From assembly GCF_016595155.1 (NCBI RefSeq), contig NZ_JAENGP010000007.1, positions 1 to 64,000 on the forward strand: DNA of 64,000 nucleotides. The letters are read 5' to 3'. The stretch is from Advenella mandrilli (lineage in GTDB: Bacteria > Pseudomonadota > Gammaproteobacteria > Burkholderiales > Burkholderiaceae_B). Both the position numbers and the translations under genes were made by a program. Shown piece after piece: positions 32,876 to 40,800 of this stretch; within the stretch, counting starts at the first letter, position 1, and every line of letters starts with the position of its first letter. The notes under the pieces are model-generated. The model was given only the letters and a program-made list of their open reading frames with translations. It was not told the DNA's origin and did not search any database.

Positions 32876-33319
32876 ATGTCGGCCGATTCTTTTAATCTTG
32901 AAAATTCACTTACCTATAAACTGCATTCCCTAGCCAAGTTAATTGACAGGCATGCAGACTATGCGGACATTGAGCACGCCTGTATTTCTTTTGCCGAGGG
33001 CAGGGTGCTGGCCGTGATTGGTTTTAATAAAATGCTGTCAGTGGTGCAGGTAGCCAAAAAAGCCAACCTTGATAAAAGCCAGGGCAGCCGGGCGGTGGTC
33101 TCTTTGGTGGGCAAGGGCCTGATAGAAAAGCGCCAGCAAAAACAGGATGCCCGGGCCTTTGATTTATCCCTGACAGAAAAAGGAAGGCTGGTGTATGAGG
33201 AAGTGGTAAGCTTGATTACGCACCGCAATGAAATTGCGATGAAGACATTATCGGCAGAAGAACAACAAAATTTAATTAATTTAATGAATAAAATCCAGCA
33301 CAATCTGGAAAATAATTAA
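32876..33319 (+). CDS. MarR-family transcriptional regulator
   Basis: 147-aa winged-helix regulator of the MarR family. The DNA-binding region includes NKMLSVVQVAKKANLDKSQGSRAVVSLVGKGLIEKR, the wing is QKQDARAFDLSLTEKGRLVYEE, and flanking helices would form the dimer. It is the first gene of the island and lies 126 bases upstream of the monooxygenase. Its promoter-proximal partner site is probably the inverted repeat in the monooxygenase promoter (33345-33360). A remnant of its own 3' end recurs at 35583-35616. MarR proteins often sense aromatic ligands, which fits the neighbour, but the ligand is unknown. Confidence 0.88.
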   Translation: MSADSFNLENSLTYKLHSLAKLIDRHADYADIEHACISFAEGRVLAVIGFNKMLSVVQVAKKANLDKSQGSRAVVSLVGKGLIEKRQQKQDARAFDLSLTEKGRLVYEEVVSLITHRNEIAMKTLSAEEQQNLINLMNKIQHNLENN

Positions 33320-33336
33320 CGCAAATCAAAAAAAAC

Positions 33337-33365
33337 TTGAAAATGGTTGTGTTTGCAACTAAAAT
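33337..33365 (+). promoter_or_regulatory. Monooxygenase promoter with MarR-type operator (copy A)
   Basis: The -35 box is TTGAAA (33337-33342) and the -10 box TAAAAT (33360-33365), with a 17-base spacer. The spacer holds the near-palindrome GGTTGTGTTTGCAACT (33345-33360), so a bound dimer would block polymerase. A matching arrangement is found at 35634-35662 before the Bug gene. Confidence 0.75.
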
Positions 33366-33445
33366 TGCTTGCAAGTGCAATTACTTCTACGTATTGCATA
33401 GTTTTTACAAACATAAATTAAATATTTTCCATTCATGGAGACATT

Positions 33446-35140
33446 ATGCATACGCCTGTTACTGTTCCGCGTAAATCCCTGTATCACGAATACACCGTTT
33501 ACCCACACACCTTTCCGTCTGATCCTGCCCAGTCCAATGGTATTGTTACCATTGTAGGCGGGGGGCCGATTGGTCTGGTTGCCTCGCTTATCCTGGCCAA
33601 ACATGGCATTAAAAATATAGTGCTTTTATCCGAGCAGCAGGTATCCGAAGGAAGTCGCGGTCTGGTCTATACCCGCCGTTCCATGGAGATTCTCAAGGTA
33701 GCCGGTGTTGCCGATCGCATTATGGAAAAGGCCCTGTCCTGGACCAGTGGCAATTCTTTTTATCATGGCGAGCGCGTTTTCCGTATGGAGACGCCGGTTG
33801 ATCCCCAGGACAGCTATCCGCCCCTGAACAATCTGCAGCAAAACTACCTGGAAACCTATCTGGTTGAAGAAGCCGCCAAACAGCCCCTGATTGAATTGCG
33901 CTGGGGCAACCATTTGACCTCATGCTCGCAAGATGACAATGAGGTGACCCTGGTGGTGGATACGCCCGAAGGCGAATACACTTACAAAACCCCATGGCTG
34001 ATTGCCGCCGACGGGGCCCGCTCAGGCGTACGCCAAAGTATGGAACTGGGTATGGAAGGCAATAGCTATGAAGGGCGTTTTGTGATTGTGGATATCCGCA
34101 TTGATCTGCCTTTGCCTACCGAGCGCCTGGCTTATTTTTCACCCGACTGGAACCCTGGTAATACCATTTTGCTGCACAAAGAGCCCGATAATATCTGGCG
34201 TTTTGACTATCAATTGCCCGCCCATGTCTCTAACGAAGAGGCGCTGGATCTGCAAAACATTACCAACTCGGTTAATGCCCAGCTGAAAATGATGGGATAC
34301 GAAGACAAGCAATGGGAACTGGACTGGTATTCGGTCTATTCCGCCCGTGCCCTTACTTTGCCCGATTATGTGCACAACCGTATTTTGTTTGCTGGTGATT
34401 CTGCTCATATGCTACCCATCTTTGGTGTGCGTGGGGCCAATACCGGTTTTCAGGATGTGATGGATTTATGCTGGAAACTGGTGGCCACCATTAAAGGTTG
34501 GGGCTCTTCTTATTTGCTTAATTCTTATACCAGTGACCGTGTTGGTGCCGCGATGGAAATTATTGATGAAGCGGGTAAAAGCACCCGTTTCATGGCACCG
34601 CCCACCGACGGCTTCCGTTTGCTGCGTGATGCCACGCTGTCCCTGTCCCTGAAGCACGAATTCGTTAGGCCACTGTTCCACTGGAGAACTTCCCGTGCTC
34701 ATGTGTACCGTTCTTCTCCGGTTAACAGTATTGGCGATGATAACCAGGACATGATCCCGGAATTGGATAATGGCGCGCCTATACCTAACCTGAAGTTGTC
34801 TGGTGAACCGTATCTGTACGATGAACTGGGCCTGGACTTCAATATTATTTACTTTGGCAACGAAGCAAGCCTGCCCGATTCATTGCAAAATGAAGTCAAT
34901 GAACTCAGGGCCCAGAGTGTGCCTGTCAAGGTGATTGTCCTGTCTTCTGAAAACACGGTTACCGCCGGTGCCGACAAAACCTTCAAGGTCGATGCGCAAT
35001 TGTTGCAAACCCGCTATGGGGCAAGCCAGGGCCAGGTTTATCTGGTGCGTCCCGATCATCATATTTGCGGTCGCTGGAAGCAATACGTATCGGGTTCCCT
35101 GGAAAATGCGTTCCAGAAATTCATTAAAAAATCTGCCTGA
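33446..35140 (+). CDS. FAD-dependent aromatic-ring-type monooxygenase
   Basis: 564-aa flavoprotein of the PheA/TfdB/MhpA class (class A monooxygenases), which hydroxylate aromatic rings using NAD(P)H and oxygen. The ADP-binding Rossmann motif is VTIVGGGPIGLVASLILAKHG (20 residues from VTIVGG onward); the middle motif is AADGARSGVR. The second FAD motif is LFAGDSAHMLPIFGVRGANT, followed by FQDVMDLCWKL. A C-terminal thioredoxin-like domain (about residues 440-564) is present, as in phenol hydroxylase. Upstream come a MarR gene and a strong regulated promoter; a DUF2783-like gene and a Bug receptor follow. The substrate is not known. The ATG has a GGAG site 6 bases upstream. Confidence 0.87.
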   Translation: MHTPVTVPRKSLYHEYTVYPHTFPSDPAQSNGIVTIVGGGPIGLVASLILAKHGIKNIVLLSEQQVSEGSRGLVYTRRSMEILKVAGVADRIMEKALSWTSGNSFYHGERVFRMETPVDPQDSYPPLNNLQQNYLETYLVEEAAKQPLIELRWGNHLTSCSQDDNEVTLVVDTPEGEYTYKTPWLIAADGARSGVRQSMELGMEGNSYEGRFVIVDIRIDLPLPTERLAYFSPDWNPGNTILLHKEPDNIWRFDYQLPAHVSNEEALDLQNITNSVNAQLKMMGYEDKQWELDWYSVYSARALTLPDYVHNRILFAGDSAHMLPIFGVRGANTGFQDVMDLCWKLVATIKGWGSSYLLNSYTSDRVGAAMEIIDEAGKSTRFMAPPTDGFRLLRDATLSLSLKHEFVRPLFHWRTSRAHVYRSSPVNSIGDDNQDMIPELDNGAPIPNLKLSGEPYLYDELGLDFNIIYFGNEASLPDSLQNEVNELRAQSVPVKVIVLSSENTVTAGADKTFKVDAQLLQTRYGASQGQVYLVRPDHHICGRWKQYVSGSLENAFQKFIKKSA

Positions 35141-35153
35141 GGAGGAAGAAGAA

Positions 35154-35336
35154 ATGAGTATTGATGTCCAAAGCCTTGAAAAAGTTTACGATAACCTGTC
35201 ATTTGCCATTGACAAGTTACCCGAAGAAAAACGCAGCCTGTTTCTGACCAAACTGGTTTTATTGTTAAGTAATGAAATTAAAGATGGTGAAAAAATTTGC
35301 AGCCTTATTCATGAGGCGCTGGTTTTTGAAGCATAA
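35154..35336 (+). CDS. Small DUF2783-like protein
   Basis: 60-aa protein starting 13 bases after the monooxygenase, with a strong GGAGGAAGAAG site. It is helical in character, with the core LFLTKLVLLLSNEIKDGEKI. This resembles DUF2783, a family of small proteins of unknown function usually encoded next to FAD-dependent monooxygenases in Burkholderiales (recalled from family knowledge). It may be a partner or stabiliser of the monooxygenase, but that is inference. Confidence 0.65.
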   Translation: MSIDVQSLEKVYDNLSFAIDKLPEEKRSLFLTKLVLLLSNEIKDGEKICSLIHEALVFEA

Positions 35337-35353
35337 ATAAATAGTTTGGCGTG

Positions 35354-35396
35354 CCGCCTGTCCAACCGGTTCCAAGGTTGGACAGGCGGTGTTGTT
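35354..35396 (+). terminator. Terminator after the monooxygenase operon
   Basis: Perfect 14-bp stem CCGCCTGTCCAACC (35354-35367) / GGTTGGACAGGCGG (35376-35389) with an 8-base loop, followed by the T-rich tgttgtttt. It ends the monooxygenase-DUF2783 transcript. Confidence 0.75.
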
Positions 35397-35402
35397 TTGA
35401 TT

Positions 35403-35512
35403 GGGTTGACTTCATGTTTGCTGATCTGGGCTTAAGCTTAAGTAATATCCAGGCAGGCAAGATCTGGTTGGGCCCGCCGGTTTACTCGAGGAAGTGATTG
35501 AACCAGCCAGGA
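35403..35512 (+). pseudogene. Decayed fragment of a Bug/TctC gene
   Basis: The bases read MFADLG..LSNIQAGK, then after an internal deletion LVGPAGLLEEVIE. These match LMFADLGSGLSNIQAGK and LVGPENLPEEVV of the intact Bug gene at 35867-36832. The joint skips roughly 135 bases of the intact gene. No full reading frame survives. It is the remnant of a second Bug copy. Confidence 0.75.
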
Positions 35513-35582
35513 TGGTTTATGCCAATAAAACAATTTTTTATAAATATAACTATAAAAATAACCCAAAATTGTTGTAGCTTGT

Positions 35583-35761
35583 GAGTAAAATCCAGCACAA
35601 TATGTTAAATAATTAACTTACATCAAAAAAAACTTGAATATAGTTGTTTTCACAACTAAAATGGTTGTAAGTGCAAGCAAATAAATGCATGACATTATTA
35701 AAAAATCATAAAACTGATCGCATTGAAAAATGGAGACATCTGCAAACGCCAGTTACTGGAA
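35583..35761 (+). repeat. Degenerate second copy of the marR end, promoter and monooxygenase start
   Basis: This segment matches 33286-33462. It begins with the last eleven codons of marR (reading SKIQHN..NN and a stop), continues through the promoter and operator, and ends with ATGGAGACAT followed by a TGCAAACGCCAGTTACTG stretch. That stretch corresponds to the start of the monooxygenase gene (TGCATACGCCTGTTACTG). Homology stops there. The monooxygenase start codon has been lost in this copy. Confidence 0.8.
35634..35662 (+). promoter_or_regulatory. Bug promoter with MarR-type operator (copy B)
   Basis: The -35 box is TTGAAT (35634-35639), the spacer 17 bases, and the -10 box TAAAAT (35657-35662). 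The spacer holds a perfect inverted repeat AGTTGT-TTTC-ACAACT (35642-35657), stronger than in copy A. It would drive the Bug gene about 200 bases downstream. Confidence 0.75.
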
Positions 35762-35866
35762 GCGTTGTCGCTGTTTATGCTGGACAGGTTTAGTTTGCTA
35801 CCACTTGGGCGCTGACTCAGGTGCTGTTAATGGAAACTTCTTATTTATTCCAAGGAAGGAGATAAA

Positions 35867-36832
35867 ATGTTTAAAACTATCAATAAAGTATTCGTGGTGG
35901 GTATGCTGGGTGTGGCGGGCGTGGCTCACGCTGCCTGGCCCGAGCAGCCGGTCCGCTGGGTGGTGCCTTATCCTGCCGGTGGCGGTACCGATGTAATCGC
36001 CCGTACGGTGGCGATTGAACTTGAAAAAGAACTGGGGCAAACACTGGTCATTGAAAACAAACCGGGGGGTGGTACCAGCATTGGTGCCACAACAGTAGCC
36101 AATTCCGATCCCAATGGTTATGTGCTGGGTACGGCTGACTCGGGTACTTTGGCCTATAACCCGTCCTTATATAAAAAATTAACCTATGATCCTGCCAAGT
36201 TCACTTATATTGGCGGTTTGGCAAGGTTCCCGCTGGTGCTGGCCGTACCTGCCGATTCTCCTTACCAAACTTTGGCAGAGTTGATTGAAGCGGCTAAAAA
36301 AGAACCAGGCAAGTTGTCTGCCAGTTCAGCAGGGGCTGGCTCTCCGCACCATCTGGCACTGGAACGCTTCAAACAAACAACAGGTACTGATATTCTTCAC
36401 GTGCCATACCGTGGCGCTGCCCCTGCCTTGCAGGATTTGATTGGCAAGCGCGTTGACCTGATGTTCGCCGATCTGGGTTCAGGCTTAAGCAATATTCAGG
36501 CAGGTAAAGTGCGTGTGCTGGCGGTGGCGGTACCCGAGCGCTTAAGCGCGGTATTGCCTGATGCGCCAACAATGAACGAAGCTGGCGTGGATGATTTTGT
36601 GGCCTATGCATGGCAAGGTTTGGTAGGCCCTGAAAACCTGCCAGAAGAAGTGGTCAGTAAAGTATCAAATGACTTGCAAAAAGTGCTTGCCAATGAAGAA
36701 CTCAAACAGAAAATTCATGGCATGGGCATTGAAGTCATGCCCATGAACGCTGAAGAGTTCAAGGCGTATTCCGACAAGGAACGCGCTGATTGGGCCAAAG
36801 TGATTGAAGCGGGTAATATTACACTGGATTAA
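35867..36832 (+). CDS. Bug/TctC-family periplasmic substrate-binding protein
   Basis: 321-aa exported solute receptor. The signal peptide is MFKTINKVFVVGMLGVAGVA with cleavage after AHA. The mature start AWPEQPVRWVVPYPAGGGTD is the hallmark of Bug proteins. Further family segments are VIENKPGGGTSIGA, HVPYRGAAPALQDLIGKRV and QGLVGPENLPEEVV. Bug proteins serve tripartite tricarboxylate transporters or act as sensors, and the family is greatly expanded in Bordetella relatives. No tctA/tctB membrane genes are nearby. AAGGAAGGAG precedes the ATG. The copy-B promoter and a shared MarR operator link it to the monooxygenase. The ligand is unknown. Confidence 0.88.
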   Translation: MFKTINKVFVVGMLGVAGVAHAAWPEQPVRWVVPYPAGGGTDVIARTVAIELEKELGQTLVIENKPGGGTSIGATTVANSDPNGYVLGTADSGTLAYNPSLYKKLTYDPAKFTYIGGLARFPLVLAVPADSPYQTLAELIEAAKKEPGKLSASSAGAGSPHHLALERFKQTTGTDILHVPYRGAAPALQDLIGKRVDLMFADLGSGLSNIQAGKVRVLAVAVPERLSAVLPDAPTMNEAGVDDFVAYAWQGLVGPENLPEEVVSKVSNDLQKVLANEELKQKIHGMGIEVMPMNAEEFKAYSDKERADWAKVIEAGNITLD

Positions 36833-36864
36833 TTGGATAGCTGGTTTGTTCAGCTGCTAAAAAG

Positions 36865-36896
36865 CGGCAGGTATTTTTGGATACCTGCCGTTTTTT
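36865..36896 (+). terminator. Terminator after the Bug gene
   Basis: Perfect 10-bp stem CGGCAGGTAT (36865-36874) / ATACCTGCCG (36881-36890), loop TTTTGG, then six T. A very similar hairpin lies at 37764-37790, on the other side of the AbiEi gene. Confidence 0.9.
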
Positions 36897-36990
36897 ATTT
36901 GGAAAATAGTTGTTTTATGCGATAGAAATCCCGGGCTTATGATATTAAGTCGCCAAGCCACCTGATGCTGACAGTATTTTAATTGATTTT

Positions 36991-37049
36991 TACACTATAT
37001 TTTTATAGATAATCCAGTTATATTGGATTATCTATAAAAATATAGTGTA
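36991..37049. promoter_or_regulatory. Perfect 26-bp inverted repeat upstream of abiEi
   Basis: The arms are 36991-37016 and 37024-37049, with a 7-base spacer. The left arm begins TACACTATATTT. The right arm ends 9 bases before the abiEi ATG. The repeat overlaps the most likely promoter region (TTGATT at 36983-36988 and TATAGA at 37004-37009). AbiEi antitoxins are known to repress their own operon by binding inverted repeats, so this is the probable autoregulatory operator. Confidence 0.75.
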
Positions 37050-37058
37050 TTTCATATC

Positions 37059-37697
37059 ATGAAAGTTATAAATCTTAAAAATGCCTTGCCAGCCTCATTA
37101 ATTGCACACGATCAGCTTGCGTACCTGCTGGGGAAGTCTGTGCGCAATGTGAATGACAAAATTGCCAATTTGGTTAACAACGGTGATTTGGTTCGGCTTA
37201 AAAAAGGTTTTTATGTTTTTTCAAAAGAATACCGAAACCAATCTTTAGATCTTATTGCTATCGCCAATGGGCTTTATGCTCCTTCCTATGTATCTTTTGA
37301 ATATGCCTTAAGCCTGTATGGCATGATTCCTGAAAGAGTCAGCGAAATCACCTCTGCCACCATTAAAAACAACAAGCTGTTTGTAACCCCGGTTGGTCGG
37401 TTCAGCTATAAAAAAATACCTTTGCAGGCTTATGCTTTAGGTGTTGATTGGCGTTACGACAAAATAGAAGGTGGTAGATTTATCGCTACTGCAGAAAAAG
37501 CCTTATGTGACAAAATAAAATATACCAAAGGTATTGGCACTTTAAACCAAGCCCAAATGCTTGAATTTCTGAATGATGATTTGCGTTTGGATTTGCTTAA
37601 CTCTTTGGATATTGAATTGATTGTCGCCATTGCTGCCGCCTATAAATCCAAAAACCTGAAAACCCTGGCTGTACTTCTTAAAAAAGGAAAATTATGA
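37059..37697 (+). CDS. abiEi: AbiEi-family type IV antitoxin, apparently orphan
   Basis: 212-aa protein resembling AbiEi, the antitoxin and autorepressor of AbiE phage-exclusion/toxin-antitoxin systems. The N-terminal winged-helix part contains AYLLGKSVRNVNDKIANLV and LVRLKKGFYVF. The antitoxin domain includes PSYVSFEYALSLYGMIPERV, IPLQAYALGVDWR and ATAEKALCDKI. Its stop (ATGA) overlaps an ATG that would start the toxin gene, but that frame is cut after a few codons. The gene is A/T-richer than its neighbours, consistent with acquisition. No Shine-Dalgarno sequence is visible between the inverted repeat and the ATG. Confidence 0.82.
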   Translation: MKVINLKNALPASLIAHDQLAYLLGKSVRNVNDKIANLVNNGDLVRLKKGFYVFSKEYRNQSLDLIAIANGLYAPSYVSFEYALSLYGMIPERVSEITSATIKNNKLFVTPVGRFSYKKIPLQAYALGVDWRYDKIEGGRFIATAEKALCDKIKYTKGIGTLNQAQMLEFLNDDLRLDLLNSLDIELIVAIAAAYKSKNLKTLAVLLKKGKL

Positions 37698-37760
37698 GTT
37701 ACCCCGCATTGGTAAAAATGCTTGAGAGGGTAAGTTATGTTTTGACCGGCACGCACAAAA
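37694..37760 (+). pseudogene. 5' remnant of an AbiEii-type toxin gene
   Basis: The ATG overlaps the antitoxin stop, as in intact abiE operons, and the frame reads MSYPALVKMLERVSY. AbiEii nucleotidyltransferase toxins typically begin with such a short helix ending in MLERY. Nothing resembling the catalytic domain follows; the sequence runs straight into the rne terminator. Truncation of the toxin is inferred from this short match and the missing remainder. Confidence 0.5.
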
Positions 37761-37795
37761 AAAACGGCAGGTATTTAAAATACCTGCCGTTTTTC
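37757..37795. terminator. Bidirectional terminator between abiEi and rne
   Basis: Stem ACGGCAGGTA (37764-37773) / TACCTGCCGT (37781-37790), extendable by two A-T pairs, preceded by eight A and followed by T. It terminates rne on the minus strand and anything reading out of abiEi on the plus strand. Confidence 0.88.
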
Positions 37796-37812
37796 TATCT
37801 GGAAGCAAGAAA

Positions 37813-40800
37813 CTATTTTTTGGTTTCTATTATTTCCAGCGGTGTTTCAGCAATTTTAGGTGCTGCTTTACGGGCGCGCCCAAGTGGTTTGGCTGGAACG
37901 GGGGGCTGGCTGCTTGGTGGCAGATCAGATTTGGTTTCAACCCATTGTAAACCGACATTTGAAACGATTTGCTCAAGTGAGGCAGCCGCGCTTGCGGTGC
38001 TTTCCTGAGGCTGGCTGCTGTTAACAGGGGTTTGGGCCTGGGTTGCCGTCGTGCTGGTATCGGCAGCCGCTGTTACGGTTTCCTGTTGTGCAGGCGCTTC
38101 AGTTACAGGGCTGGATACATTTCCTGCGCCAGTTTGGACTGGTGTAATGTCCTGTTCTGGTGTTTGGGCCAGCTCAGCCGCAGCGGGTGTTGCAATCGCT
38201 GTTTCTGCCGTTTCTGGTATGACAGCGGTTTCGACATTGGCTGTGACCACTTCTGCCGGAGTTTCAGCGGGTGCTACGACTTCAGTGGAAGCTGATGCTG
38301 CACTAACACTAATAGCGGGTGTGGCTTGTTCGGCAATAATCGCCGGTTCTGCTGGTGTTGCAACCGGGGTGCTGGCCTGGACAACGGTTTCAGCCGGTTT
38401 GGCAGCGGCAACCGTTTCAGGGCCTGTGTCAGCGGTGACAATAACGGGCACAGGGGTTTCTGCCGTGTTATTCGCTTCGCTTGCCAGTAAAACCTCATTG
38501 GGCACAAAAGCAGCGGGTGCTGATGTGTTTTCTGTGGTTCCCTGTTCGTCGGTTGGACGACGGGTACGACGGCTGCGACGGCGTGGGCGACGGCGTTTGT
38601 TTGGATCAATGGCTTCACCGGTTTCCTCGTCGAATACTGCTGTGCCTTCTGCCTGATCTTCATTGTCAGCGTCTTCGGCGTCTTCAGTGGCGGGGTGGGC
38701 TGCCATTGTAGCGACCACAGTGGTTGCCGCAGTTTTGACGCTTGTGCTGACGGTTTCCTGGATAGCATCCGCGTCGGGTTTTACCCGGGCAGGACGCTGC
38801 TTGGCAGGCGTTTCGGCAGCTGTGCTTTCTGAATTGTCGCTATCCTGGGGCAGGGTTTGATCAACGGCTTCAGTATTGCTGTCACGACGGCTGTTACTGC
38901 GTGAACGACTGCGTCGGCTGCGTGAACGTGAGCTGGTTTCTTCGGTAGACTGGCCGGCATCGGTGTTGGTAACGGTTTCTGCCGGTGTGGCCTTAGCGTC
39001 ACGTTCTTTGTTGCGACTGTCCTGGGCGCGGGGTTTGGCCGTACGTGGCGTGCGGCGTTTTTCCTCTTCCGTTTCAGTGCCTTCGGCGCGTTTTTCAGGG
39101 GTACGGCGGTTGCGGTTGGTATTGCGCTCATTGCGCTGGCCGGTTCTGCCACGATTGGCCTGGCGGGGCTTCTCTTCTTTTTGCGGCTCGGCTTCAGGGG
39201 TGGCGGCTTTATCACCGGCAAACCAGCTAAGCAGGCGCTTGAACAAACCCGGCTGGGCGGTGTTTAAGGGCTCTGTTTTGGGGGCAGGAATCACGGGTGC
39301 GGGCTGGTCACGGGAAATGCCTTTGACCAGGGCTTCAGGGCGTTCGTTATGAACGGCTTTTTCGGTGCTGGACTCCCAGGTTACCGTGGTGCTGGGCTGT
39401 TCGATCAGGTCTATGCTGGTTTTGGGCTCATCAAGACGGTTGTCATCGTAACGAATGCGTTCGATATGATGATGAGGAGTTTCCAAGTGTTTGTTTGGAA
39501 TAAGCACCACATTGATTTTAAGGCGGGACTCCATTTTGACAATGTCGGACCGCTTTTCATTCATTAGGTAAGTGGCCACTTCTACGGGCAACTGTACATG
39601 CAGGGCCGCTGTGTTGTCTTTCATGGCCTCTTCCTGCAACAGGCGCAGAATGTTCAGGGCGCTGGATTCCACATCACGGATAACACCCGTGCCGTTACAG
39701 CGCGGGCAGGTAATATGAGAGCCTTCATTAAGAGACGGGCGCAGGCGCTGGCGTGACAGTTCCATGAGGCCAAAACGCGAGATTTTGCCCATTTGGACAC
39801 GAGCACGGTCAAAGTGCAGGGCGTCACGCAGTTTCTGTTCAATCGCGCGCTGGTTCTTGCTGTCTTCCATATCGATGAAGTCGATAACAATCAAGCCCCC
39901 CAAGTCACGCAGGCGCAGTTGGCGGGCCGCTTCTTCGGCCGCTTCAAGGTTGGTGCGCAGGGCGGTTTCTTCAATGTCGGTGCCACGGGTGGAGCGGGCG
40001 GAGTTGACGTCGATGGCAACCAGGGCTTCGGTGTGATCAATAACAATCGCACCGCCTGAAGGGAGTTGAACCGTACGGGAATAGGCGGTTTCAATCTGGT
40101 GTTCGATCTGGAAGCGGGAGAACAGGGGGATATCGTCATGGTAGCGCTTGACGCGACTGACGTTATCGGGCATGACGTCTTTCATGAAGGCGACAGCCTG
40201 TTCGGTAATGGTATCGGTGTCTATGAGGATTTCGCTGATATCGGGAGAGAAATAGTCACGAATAGCGCGAATCACCAGGCTGGATTCCTGATAGATAAGT
40301 ACCGGTGCGGGATATTCTTTGGCAGCCGAATCAATGGCATTCCAGAGTTGCAGCAGGTATTTCAGGTCCCATTCCAGCTCGGGAACCGAGCGGCCGATGC
40401 CTGCCGTGCGGGCGATCATGCTCATGCCGGCGGGCAAGTTAAGCTGGTCCATGGCTTCACGCAGTTCCTGGCGCTCCTCACCTTCGATGCGGCGTGAAAC
40501 ACCGCCGCCACGCGGGTTGTTGGGCATTAAAACCAGATAACGGCCAGCCAGTGAAATAAAGGTGGTCAGGGCTGCGCCTTTGTTGCCACGTTCTTCTTTT
40601 TCAACCTGGATGATGAGTTCCTGGCCTTCGCTTAAGGCATCCTGAATGCGGGCACCCCGGACATCGACCCCTTCCTTGAAGTAGCTGCGGGCCACTTCCT
40701 TGAAAGGCAGGAAGCCGTGACGGTCATGGCCATAGTTGACAAAGCAGGCTTCAAGCCCGGGTTCGATCCGGGTGATGACGGCTTTGTAAATACTGCCTTT

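Follow-up and report, generated by a model that had tools for sequence, protein, structure and literature searches.

The 530-base spacer (35337-35866) that separates the DUF2783-like gene from the Bug gene in this Advenella genome is very probably the remains of a tandem duplication with complementary loss, in which a second promoter, P2, was retained and probably now serves Bug, and the Bug end of the locus was probably replaced from the lineage of a relative represented by a metagenome-assembled genome (MAG). The window referred to throughout is the whole 64,000-nucleotide stretch of DNA that was analysed, and nine other genomes of the same genus were present in the collection.

In the proposed sequence of events, a tandem duplication between accD and rne would have covered at least the marR end through to the inverted repeat just after Bug. 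In copy 1, deletions would have removed Bug and spared marR, the monooxygenase and DUF2783; in copy 2, Bug and P2 would have survived, and marR' (perhaps never complete), monooxygenase' and any DUF2783' would have disappeared. The final gene order would equal the original, with a terminator and a second MarR-type promoter/operator now preceding Bug. P2 would transcribe Bug separately, and the same MarR regulator acting on both promoters would make two co-regulated units from one. As a last step in this genome, the Bug end of the locus would have been replaced, probably by recombination with MAG-lineage DNA. The proposed duplication and complementary-loss steps are supported by comparison of the locus with its relatives.

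The locus and the remnants in its spacer

The Pfam matches of marR, the FAD monooxygenase and the TctC/Bug gene all lie above cut-off, and the monooxygenase also passes NCBIfam NF006002. The third, small gene misses the curated cut-off of 25 bits for DUF2783 (PF10932), both in the window (15.4) and in the two relatives scanned (17.1 and 16.2); judged by its profile score, its resemblance to that family is a remote one. The intact Bug gene has a dN/dS of 0.08 against its MAG counterpart bug2, and the comparison indicates that purifying selection acts on it. Coordinates are collected in Table 1, where primes mark genes of copy 2.

Table 1. Features of the duplicated locus and its surroundings, in window coordinates
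Feature	Position	Strand	Evidence
marR, intact copy 1, MarR-family regulator	32876..33319	+	Pfam MarR_2 2.6e-9
P1, putative promoter TTGAAA-17-TAAAAT, imperfect inverted repeat between hexamers	33337..33365	+	operator-like pattern exact
FAD-dependent monooxygenase, intact copy 1	33446..35140	+	Pfam FAD_binding_3 8.3e-61; NCBIfam NF006002 1.1e-160
DUF2783-like small protein, intact copy 1	35154..35336	+	PF10932 E 0.015, 15.4 bits; position kept in relatives
Approximate patch, probably from the MAG lineage, also holding an AbiEi-like gene absent from the MAG	35240..38400		identity windows
17-bp terminator-like hairpin between DUF2783 and Bug	35351..35392	+	z -5.3; matching 17-bp hairpin in the MAG before bug1
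bug1 remnant, piece a	35405..35461	+	95% to MAG bug1, L037 8641-8697
bug1 remnant, piece b	35456..35500	+	87% to MAG bug1, L037 8801-8845
Stretch found downstream of bug1 in the MAG, including marR' tail, P2 and monooxygenase' start	35484..35765	+	95.4% over 282 nt
marR' tail, last codons and stop of second marR	35582..35616	+	
P2, putative copy 2 promoter core TTGAAT-17-TAAAAT	35634..35662	+	perfect inverted repeat AGTTGT-N4-ACAACT at 35642-35657
monooxygenase' start, ribosome-site region and first codons, ATG lost	35730..35758	+	
bug2 leader, homologous to MAG bug1 leader	35812..35866	+	74% over 53 columns (35812-35864)
bug2, intact Bug/TctC-type substrate-binding protein, copy 2	35867..36832	+	Pfam TctC 3e-71

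The sequence-only reading had placed four remnants in the spacer, and all four are present in the order it gave and within a few bases of its positions. Its collapsed Bug fragment at 35403-35512 is found as two pieces (35405-35461 and 35456-35500), the proposed end lying about 12 nt too far; the last codons of a second marR, put at 35583-35616, occupy 35582-35616; and these codons and the second promoter/operator (35634-35662) both fall within an 81-nt ungapped repeat that joins 33285-33365 to 35582-35662 at 85% identity. The start of a second monooxygenase had been followed to about 35761, and the gapped alignment reaches 35758: 35564-35758 aligns with 33266-33464, in the order marR end, promoter, monooxygenase start, with a score of 78 against a maximum of 22 in 200 dinucleotide shuffles of the gap. 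The Bug remnant (35405-35460) aligns with the intact gene of the same genome (36452-36507) with a score of 36 against a shuffle maximum of 16, and these two scores agree with the earlier view that the remnants could be aligned directly to 33286-33462 and to the intact Bug gene. Judged by eye, pieces a and b meet where the MAG sequence has GGCAAGG as a short direct repeat, a position that fits a deletion by short homology; other joints are less clear.

Smaller parts of the spacer gave weaker or no signals when taken separately. The segment 35700-35866 alone scores 20 against the marR-monooxygenase region (shuffle maximum 17), 35663-35780 alone is at chance level (23 against a shuffle maximum of 23), and 35762-35866 alone matches none of the three targets. 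No match to a second DUF2783 rises above shuffles anywhere in the spacer, and a protein-level search with three spacer pieces returned no convincing DUF2783 or monooxygenase remnant. The identified remnants leave out 35501-35563 and 35766-35811. Inner marR' codons were considered for 35491-35567 and rejected, as the resemblance to marR is not beyond chance in a codon-shuffle test (57 to 497 of 500 codon shuffles were equally good over 15 frame/reference combinations); the MAG counterpart of this segment scored 15 against A. faeciporci marR in one alignment, with 0/200 shuffles reaching it, a result that codon shuffles did not uphold.

Intermediates and single units in other Advenella genomes

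The key comparison is with the MAG (locus L037). Its contig C275 carries marR-monooxygenase-DUF2783-bug1 followed by the counterpart of window 35484-35765, where the contig ends, so that bug1, an inverted repeat, the marR' tail, P2 and the monooxygenase' start lie in this order on one contig. A second contig, C299, ends within a second Bug gene, bug2, with rne adjoining. The adjacency of P2 and bug2 in the MAG has to be deduced because C275 and C299 are not joined, and with this join the MAG presents a tandem duplication of a multi-gene stretch. MAG bug1 can be aligned to the window Bug from the leader through the post-gene inverted repeat (35812-36896, 78%), and it too stands behind a DUF2783 terminator; the terminator scan of the MAG did not list the inverted repeat behind bug1 and found none between bug1 and P2.

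Over residues 101-321 the intact window Bug is identical to MAG bug2 at 96% of amino acid and 93.4% of DNA positions; its identity to MAG bug1 is 86%. The window remnants match MAG bug1 and the intact gene matches MAG bug2, therefore the window fossil corresponds to bug1 and the intact gene to bug2, as anticipated by the claim that copy 1 lost its Bug gene and copy 2 kept it. The losses are complementary, with remnants where they would be expected (35405-35500 and 35582-35758, then intact bug2 from 35867). The comparison with relatives that had been suggested as a check thus yielded an intermediate, with a near-complete bug1, then the marR' tail, promoter and monooxygenase start, and bug2 on another contig. 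Of the further claim that the whole four-gene unit was duplicated in tandem, the duplication itself is upheld by this intermediate, and a complete second marR and a second DUF2783 are not. One observation on the MAG stands apart: its bug1 (L037 8057-8257) is one base short near codon 38, leaving the start out of frame with the remainder, which may reflect early decay or, in a draft assembly, an assembly error.

The loci found by protein include those of A. alkanexedens (L035), A. faeciporci (L036), the MAG, Advenella sp. FME57 (L038), A. kashmirensis (L039) and A. incenata (L041). In all five loci available as a whole stretch (L035, L036, L038, L039 and L041), accD-marR-monooxygenase-DUF2783-Bug-rne occurs once. 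The distance from the DUF2783 stop to the Bug start is ~464 nt in A. alkanexedens, ~165 nt in the MAG (before bug1), ~153 nt in A. faeciporci and ~140-145 nt in three distant loci; A. faeciporci and these three have a single unit with a short spacer. It had been reasoned that relatives sharing the long spacer with no sign of a second unit would speak against a duplication; no such relatives were found, the fossil-free ones having a spacer of only ~140-155 nt. A DNA search with window 35484-35866 matched four of ten Advenella genomes, namely the window genome, A. alkanexedens, the MAG and, at P1 only, A. faeciporci.

The A. alkanexedens spacer carries P2, and 35 of its columns match nucleotides 1523-1556 of the MAG monooxygenase (score 25, maximum 20, 0/2000 shuffles), this gene being among 13 targets tried with the spacer; scores with the monooxygenases of A. 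alkanexedens itself and of the window are at chance level (14 and 11). A. alkanexedens thus probably retains a 3' fragment of monooxygenase', seen in this species alone, and if the fragment is real, the second monooxygenase once reached at least nucleotides 1523-1556. The monooxygenase' ATG is kept in A. alkanexedens and lost in the window and the MAG, so the lesions differ. As a separate matter, the A. alkanexedens fragment resembles the MAG version of the monooxygenase, and part of the 3' third of the window monooxygenase (34701-35100) is 62-71% identical to the MAG (windows starting 34701-34901) against 72-86% over most of the gene; an exchange between monooxygenase copies around 34701-35100 is possible on these identities.

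A search of 268 genomes from the family, at E<=1e-140 and with no more than 5 candidate places considered per genome, revealed no intact tandem unit; 16 genomes have a match and three have two, always on different contigs. A second monooxygenase, 54-56% identical and with a DUF2783-like gene adjoining, lies elsewhere in the genomes of three relatives, G002, G008 and G004, the last being the MAG (L062, L063 and L064). These paralogues (~55%) were rejected as the source of the fossil, given their different gene setting with no nearby marR, accD or rne matches, and the window genome has no second monooxygenase above about 27%. Two loci of another Advenella, G007 (L014 and L066), carry the monooxygenase and Bug of the same unit broken into several frames, with rne also in pieces, which suggests a low-quality assembly rather than decay.

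That the similarities in the spacer arise by chance or from low-complexity AT-rich matches is close to negligible as an explanation: the spacer is AT-rich and two of its sub-pieces are at chance level alone, but the dinucleotide shuffles reject this reading for both main alignments and a related fossil is present in two other genomes. Scarcely more credible is an origin in which no unit was duplicated and separate small insertions brought copies of only a promoter fragment and a Bug fragment into the spacer. The window itself, which shows fragments only, would permit this; the gene order on the MAG contig together with a second Bug in that genome, and the monooxygenase' 3' fragment in the right order in A. 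alkanexedens, argue against it and for duplication followed by loss.

The second promoter, the probably imported patch and the timing of the proposed duplication

The sequence-only reading did not extend to the retention of P2, the probably imported patch or the match of 35812-35864 to the MAG bug1 leader. Between A. alkanexedens and the window, the P2 core is identical at 28/29 positions against 51/84 in the other flanking intergenic sequence (Fisher p=0.0001), in a test that covers one pair of lineages and in which three overlapping 29-column windows, the P2 core included, tie as the most conserved of the alignment. The -35/-10 elements and the operator-like inverted repeat of P2 are in this comparison conserved beyond their surroundings. 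The P1 control, with the MAG set against the other three, gives a weaker contrast (24-25/29 against 69-75% of the rest, p 0.07-0.14). As a match to the sigma-70 consensus P2 is ordinary: it has 9/12 positions, a level that shuffles reach too (10 sites found, mean 7.4 in shuffles).

In a search of 11 genomes allowing up to one mismatch, the operator-like pattern GTTGNNTTNNCAACTAAAAT has no exact sites other than P1 and P2 in the genomes of the window, A. alkanexedens and the MAG, and none other than P1 in that of A. faeciporci. Sites with one mismatch number three, one in the window genome and two in G006, among them G006:C1:2747015-2747034 just upstream of the G006 monooxygenase; as a control, the pattern read backwards matched three times across the same 11 genomes. 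Behind DUF2783, each of the three carriers of the fossil (window, MAG and A. alkanexedens) has a terminator-like hairpin of 14-17 bp; the one at this place in A. faeciporci, of 11 bp, is weaker, and none was found on that strand behind DUF2783 in the three distant Advenella loci scanned. The conservation of the P2 core, the sites of the operator-like pattern and the hairpins hence suggest that P2 now serves Bug, and P2 probably drives its transcription. In this proposal one MarR regulator would control both P1 and P2, and one transcription unit would have become two co-regulated ones.

The Bug end of the locus has a different affinity from the rest of the window. Outside the locus, in 300-nt windows, the DNA is on average 85.9% identical to A. 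alkanexedens (588 windows), 87.1% to A. faeciporci (591) and 78.6% to the MAG (245; maximum 94.3). Inside the patch, identity is 88-95% to the MAG (9/9 windows), 70-80% to A. alkanexedens (8) and 71-78% to A. faeciporci (7). With finer steps, the patch begins near 35240 and ends near 38150-38550; between Bug and 38483, alignment with A. alkanexedens and A. faeciporci is poor or absent. MAG bug1 and bug2 are 73-74% identical to the Bug genes of A. alkanexedens and A. faeciporci, in the range of other long alignments of MAG contigs (about 71-81%), so the patch looks native in the MAG lineage and foreign in that of the window. On these identities, recombination with the MAG lineage is the probable source of window ~35240-38400.

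The interval between Bug and rne also holds a gene for an AbiEi-like antitoxin-type regulator (36905-37755; NCBIfam TAA_AbiEi E 3.6e-10, below cut-off), with no match in the nine loci compared; MAG contig C299 lacks it at the corresponding place. Both flanks of this gene match the inverted-repeat region behind Bug over about 49 nt, as if it had been inserted there. Just upstream of the gene, at 36991-37049, lies an inverted repeat whose 26-nt arms are perfectly matched and 7 nt apart.

The same duplication and loss could have left P2 as a neutral remnant, with Bug read from P1 or another promoter and the core conserved by chance, a reading that we consider unlikely. In its favour, a consensus match of this quality is common by chance, the sharing of P2 by window and MAG probably came about through import, so that their likeness is uninformative on constraint, and the conservation test draws on one lineage pair with a weaker contrast at P1; the excess of identity in the core over its flanks, and terminator-like hairpins behind DUF2783 in every carrier, oppose it and favour a retained P2. 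As to the timing, the three P2s form one clade (UFB 95) in an unrooted tree, which disfavours an independent duplication in A. alkanexedens, whose P2 is 70% identical to the window P2 and 60% to its own P1. Over the 3' part and with outgroups included, the Bug tree pairs MAG bug1 with bug2 (UFB 100) and A. alkanexedens with A. faeciporci (96-97); a duplication that preceded the species split would not give this pattern without gene conversion. Either the duplication predates the split and gene conversion acted between bug1 and bug2, or it arose in the MAG lineage and reached A. alkanexedens by recombination; the unrooted promoter tree would fit both. We give a little under an even chance to a duplication in the MAG lineage alone, the window lineage and A. 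alkanexedens having received the fossil by recombination at different times. Besides the grouping of MAG bug1 and bug2 against A. alkanexedens and A. faeciporci, this agrees with the imported look of the window patch, with the MAG P1 being 66-78% identical to the three P2s against 60-71% for the other P1s, and with the A. alkanexedens leader and first ~130 nt of Bug, which are 75/85% identical to the window against 66/81% to A. faeciporci, a pattern that does not continue beyond. Against it, the P2 of A. alkanexedens differs widely from the other two (70% identity) and carries lesions of its own, gene conversion could explain the likeness of bug1 to bug2, support in the Bug tree for the first 300 nt is as low as UFB 54, and the promoter tree is also compatible with an older duplication.

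Relation to duplication-loss models

The locus would work like duplication-random loss (DRL), the process outlined for animal mitochondrial genomes such as those of Aneides salamanders (PMC5745709), as an order-preserving case of it. Shared with that account are tandem duplication, loss of one copy of each gene, and pseudogene or non-coding remnants that persist; here, however, the setting is a bacterial chromosome, a single unit of ~3.5-4 kb is involved, and what persists as non-coding sequence is a promoter/operator that shows signs of constraint. The SNAP hypothesis, as outlined in PMC7055797, has a duplication kept by positive selection during niche adaptation; the copies then lose different genes, which puts an end to segregation of the duplication. 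At this locus, too, different genes have been lost from each copy, locking the duplication. SNAP as written deals with duplications of tens of kilobases to >1 megabase that end in a changed gene order (PMC7055797), whereas here the unit is small and the order unchanged. The change of order that belongs to both DRL and SNAP is absent: marR-monooxygenase-DUF2783-Bug stands as in the single-unit relatives.

The SNAP paper suggests a search for pseudogenes whose active copies match them, and mentions that novel regulatory units are formed in the process (PMC7055797); it also states, in 2020, that there was so far no direct empirical evidence of the process causing rearrangements in modern species (PMC7055797). 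Segmental duplication with asymmetrical loss has been proposed for changes in operon clusters, a mechanism described there as inferred and not precisely determinable (PMC8046335), in contrast to the decaying intermediates visible in sequence here. Among the matches listed from open-access full texts, no described case was found of an order-preserving duplication-loss that leaves a new promoter.

It is somewhat better than an even bet, in our judgement, that duplication and loss with the order unchanged has rewired the operon in this way, with P2, under the same regulator, as the only piece besides Bug kept by selection. This would give a simple, testable route for a distal gene of an operon to acquire a copy of the regulated promoter of that operon with gene order unchanged, and the intermediates in sister lineages, if true, would form a natural step-by-step record of promoter gain by duplication. 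Half-decayed intermediates are a prediction of bacterial duplication-loss models of gene order, and within one genus the states found are both Bug genes in the MAG, one collapsed in the window and one gone in A. alkanexedens.
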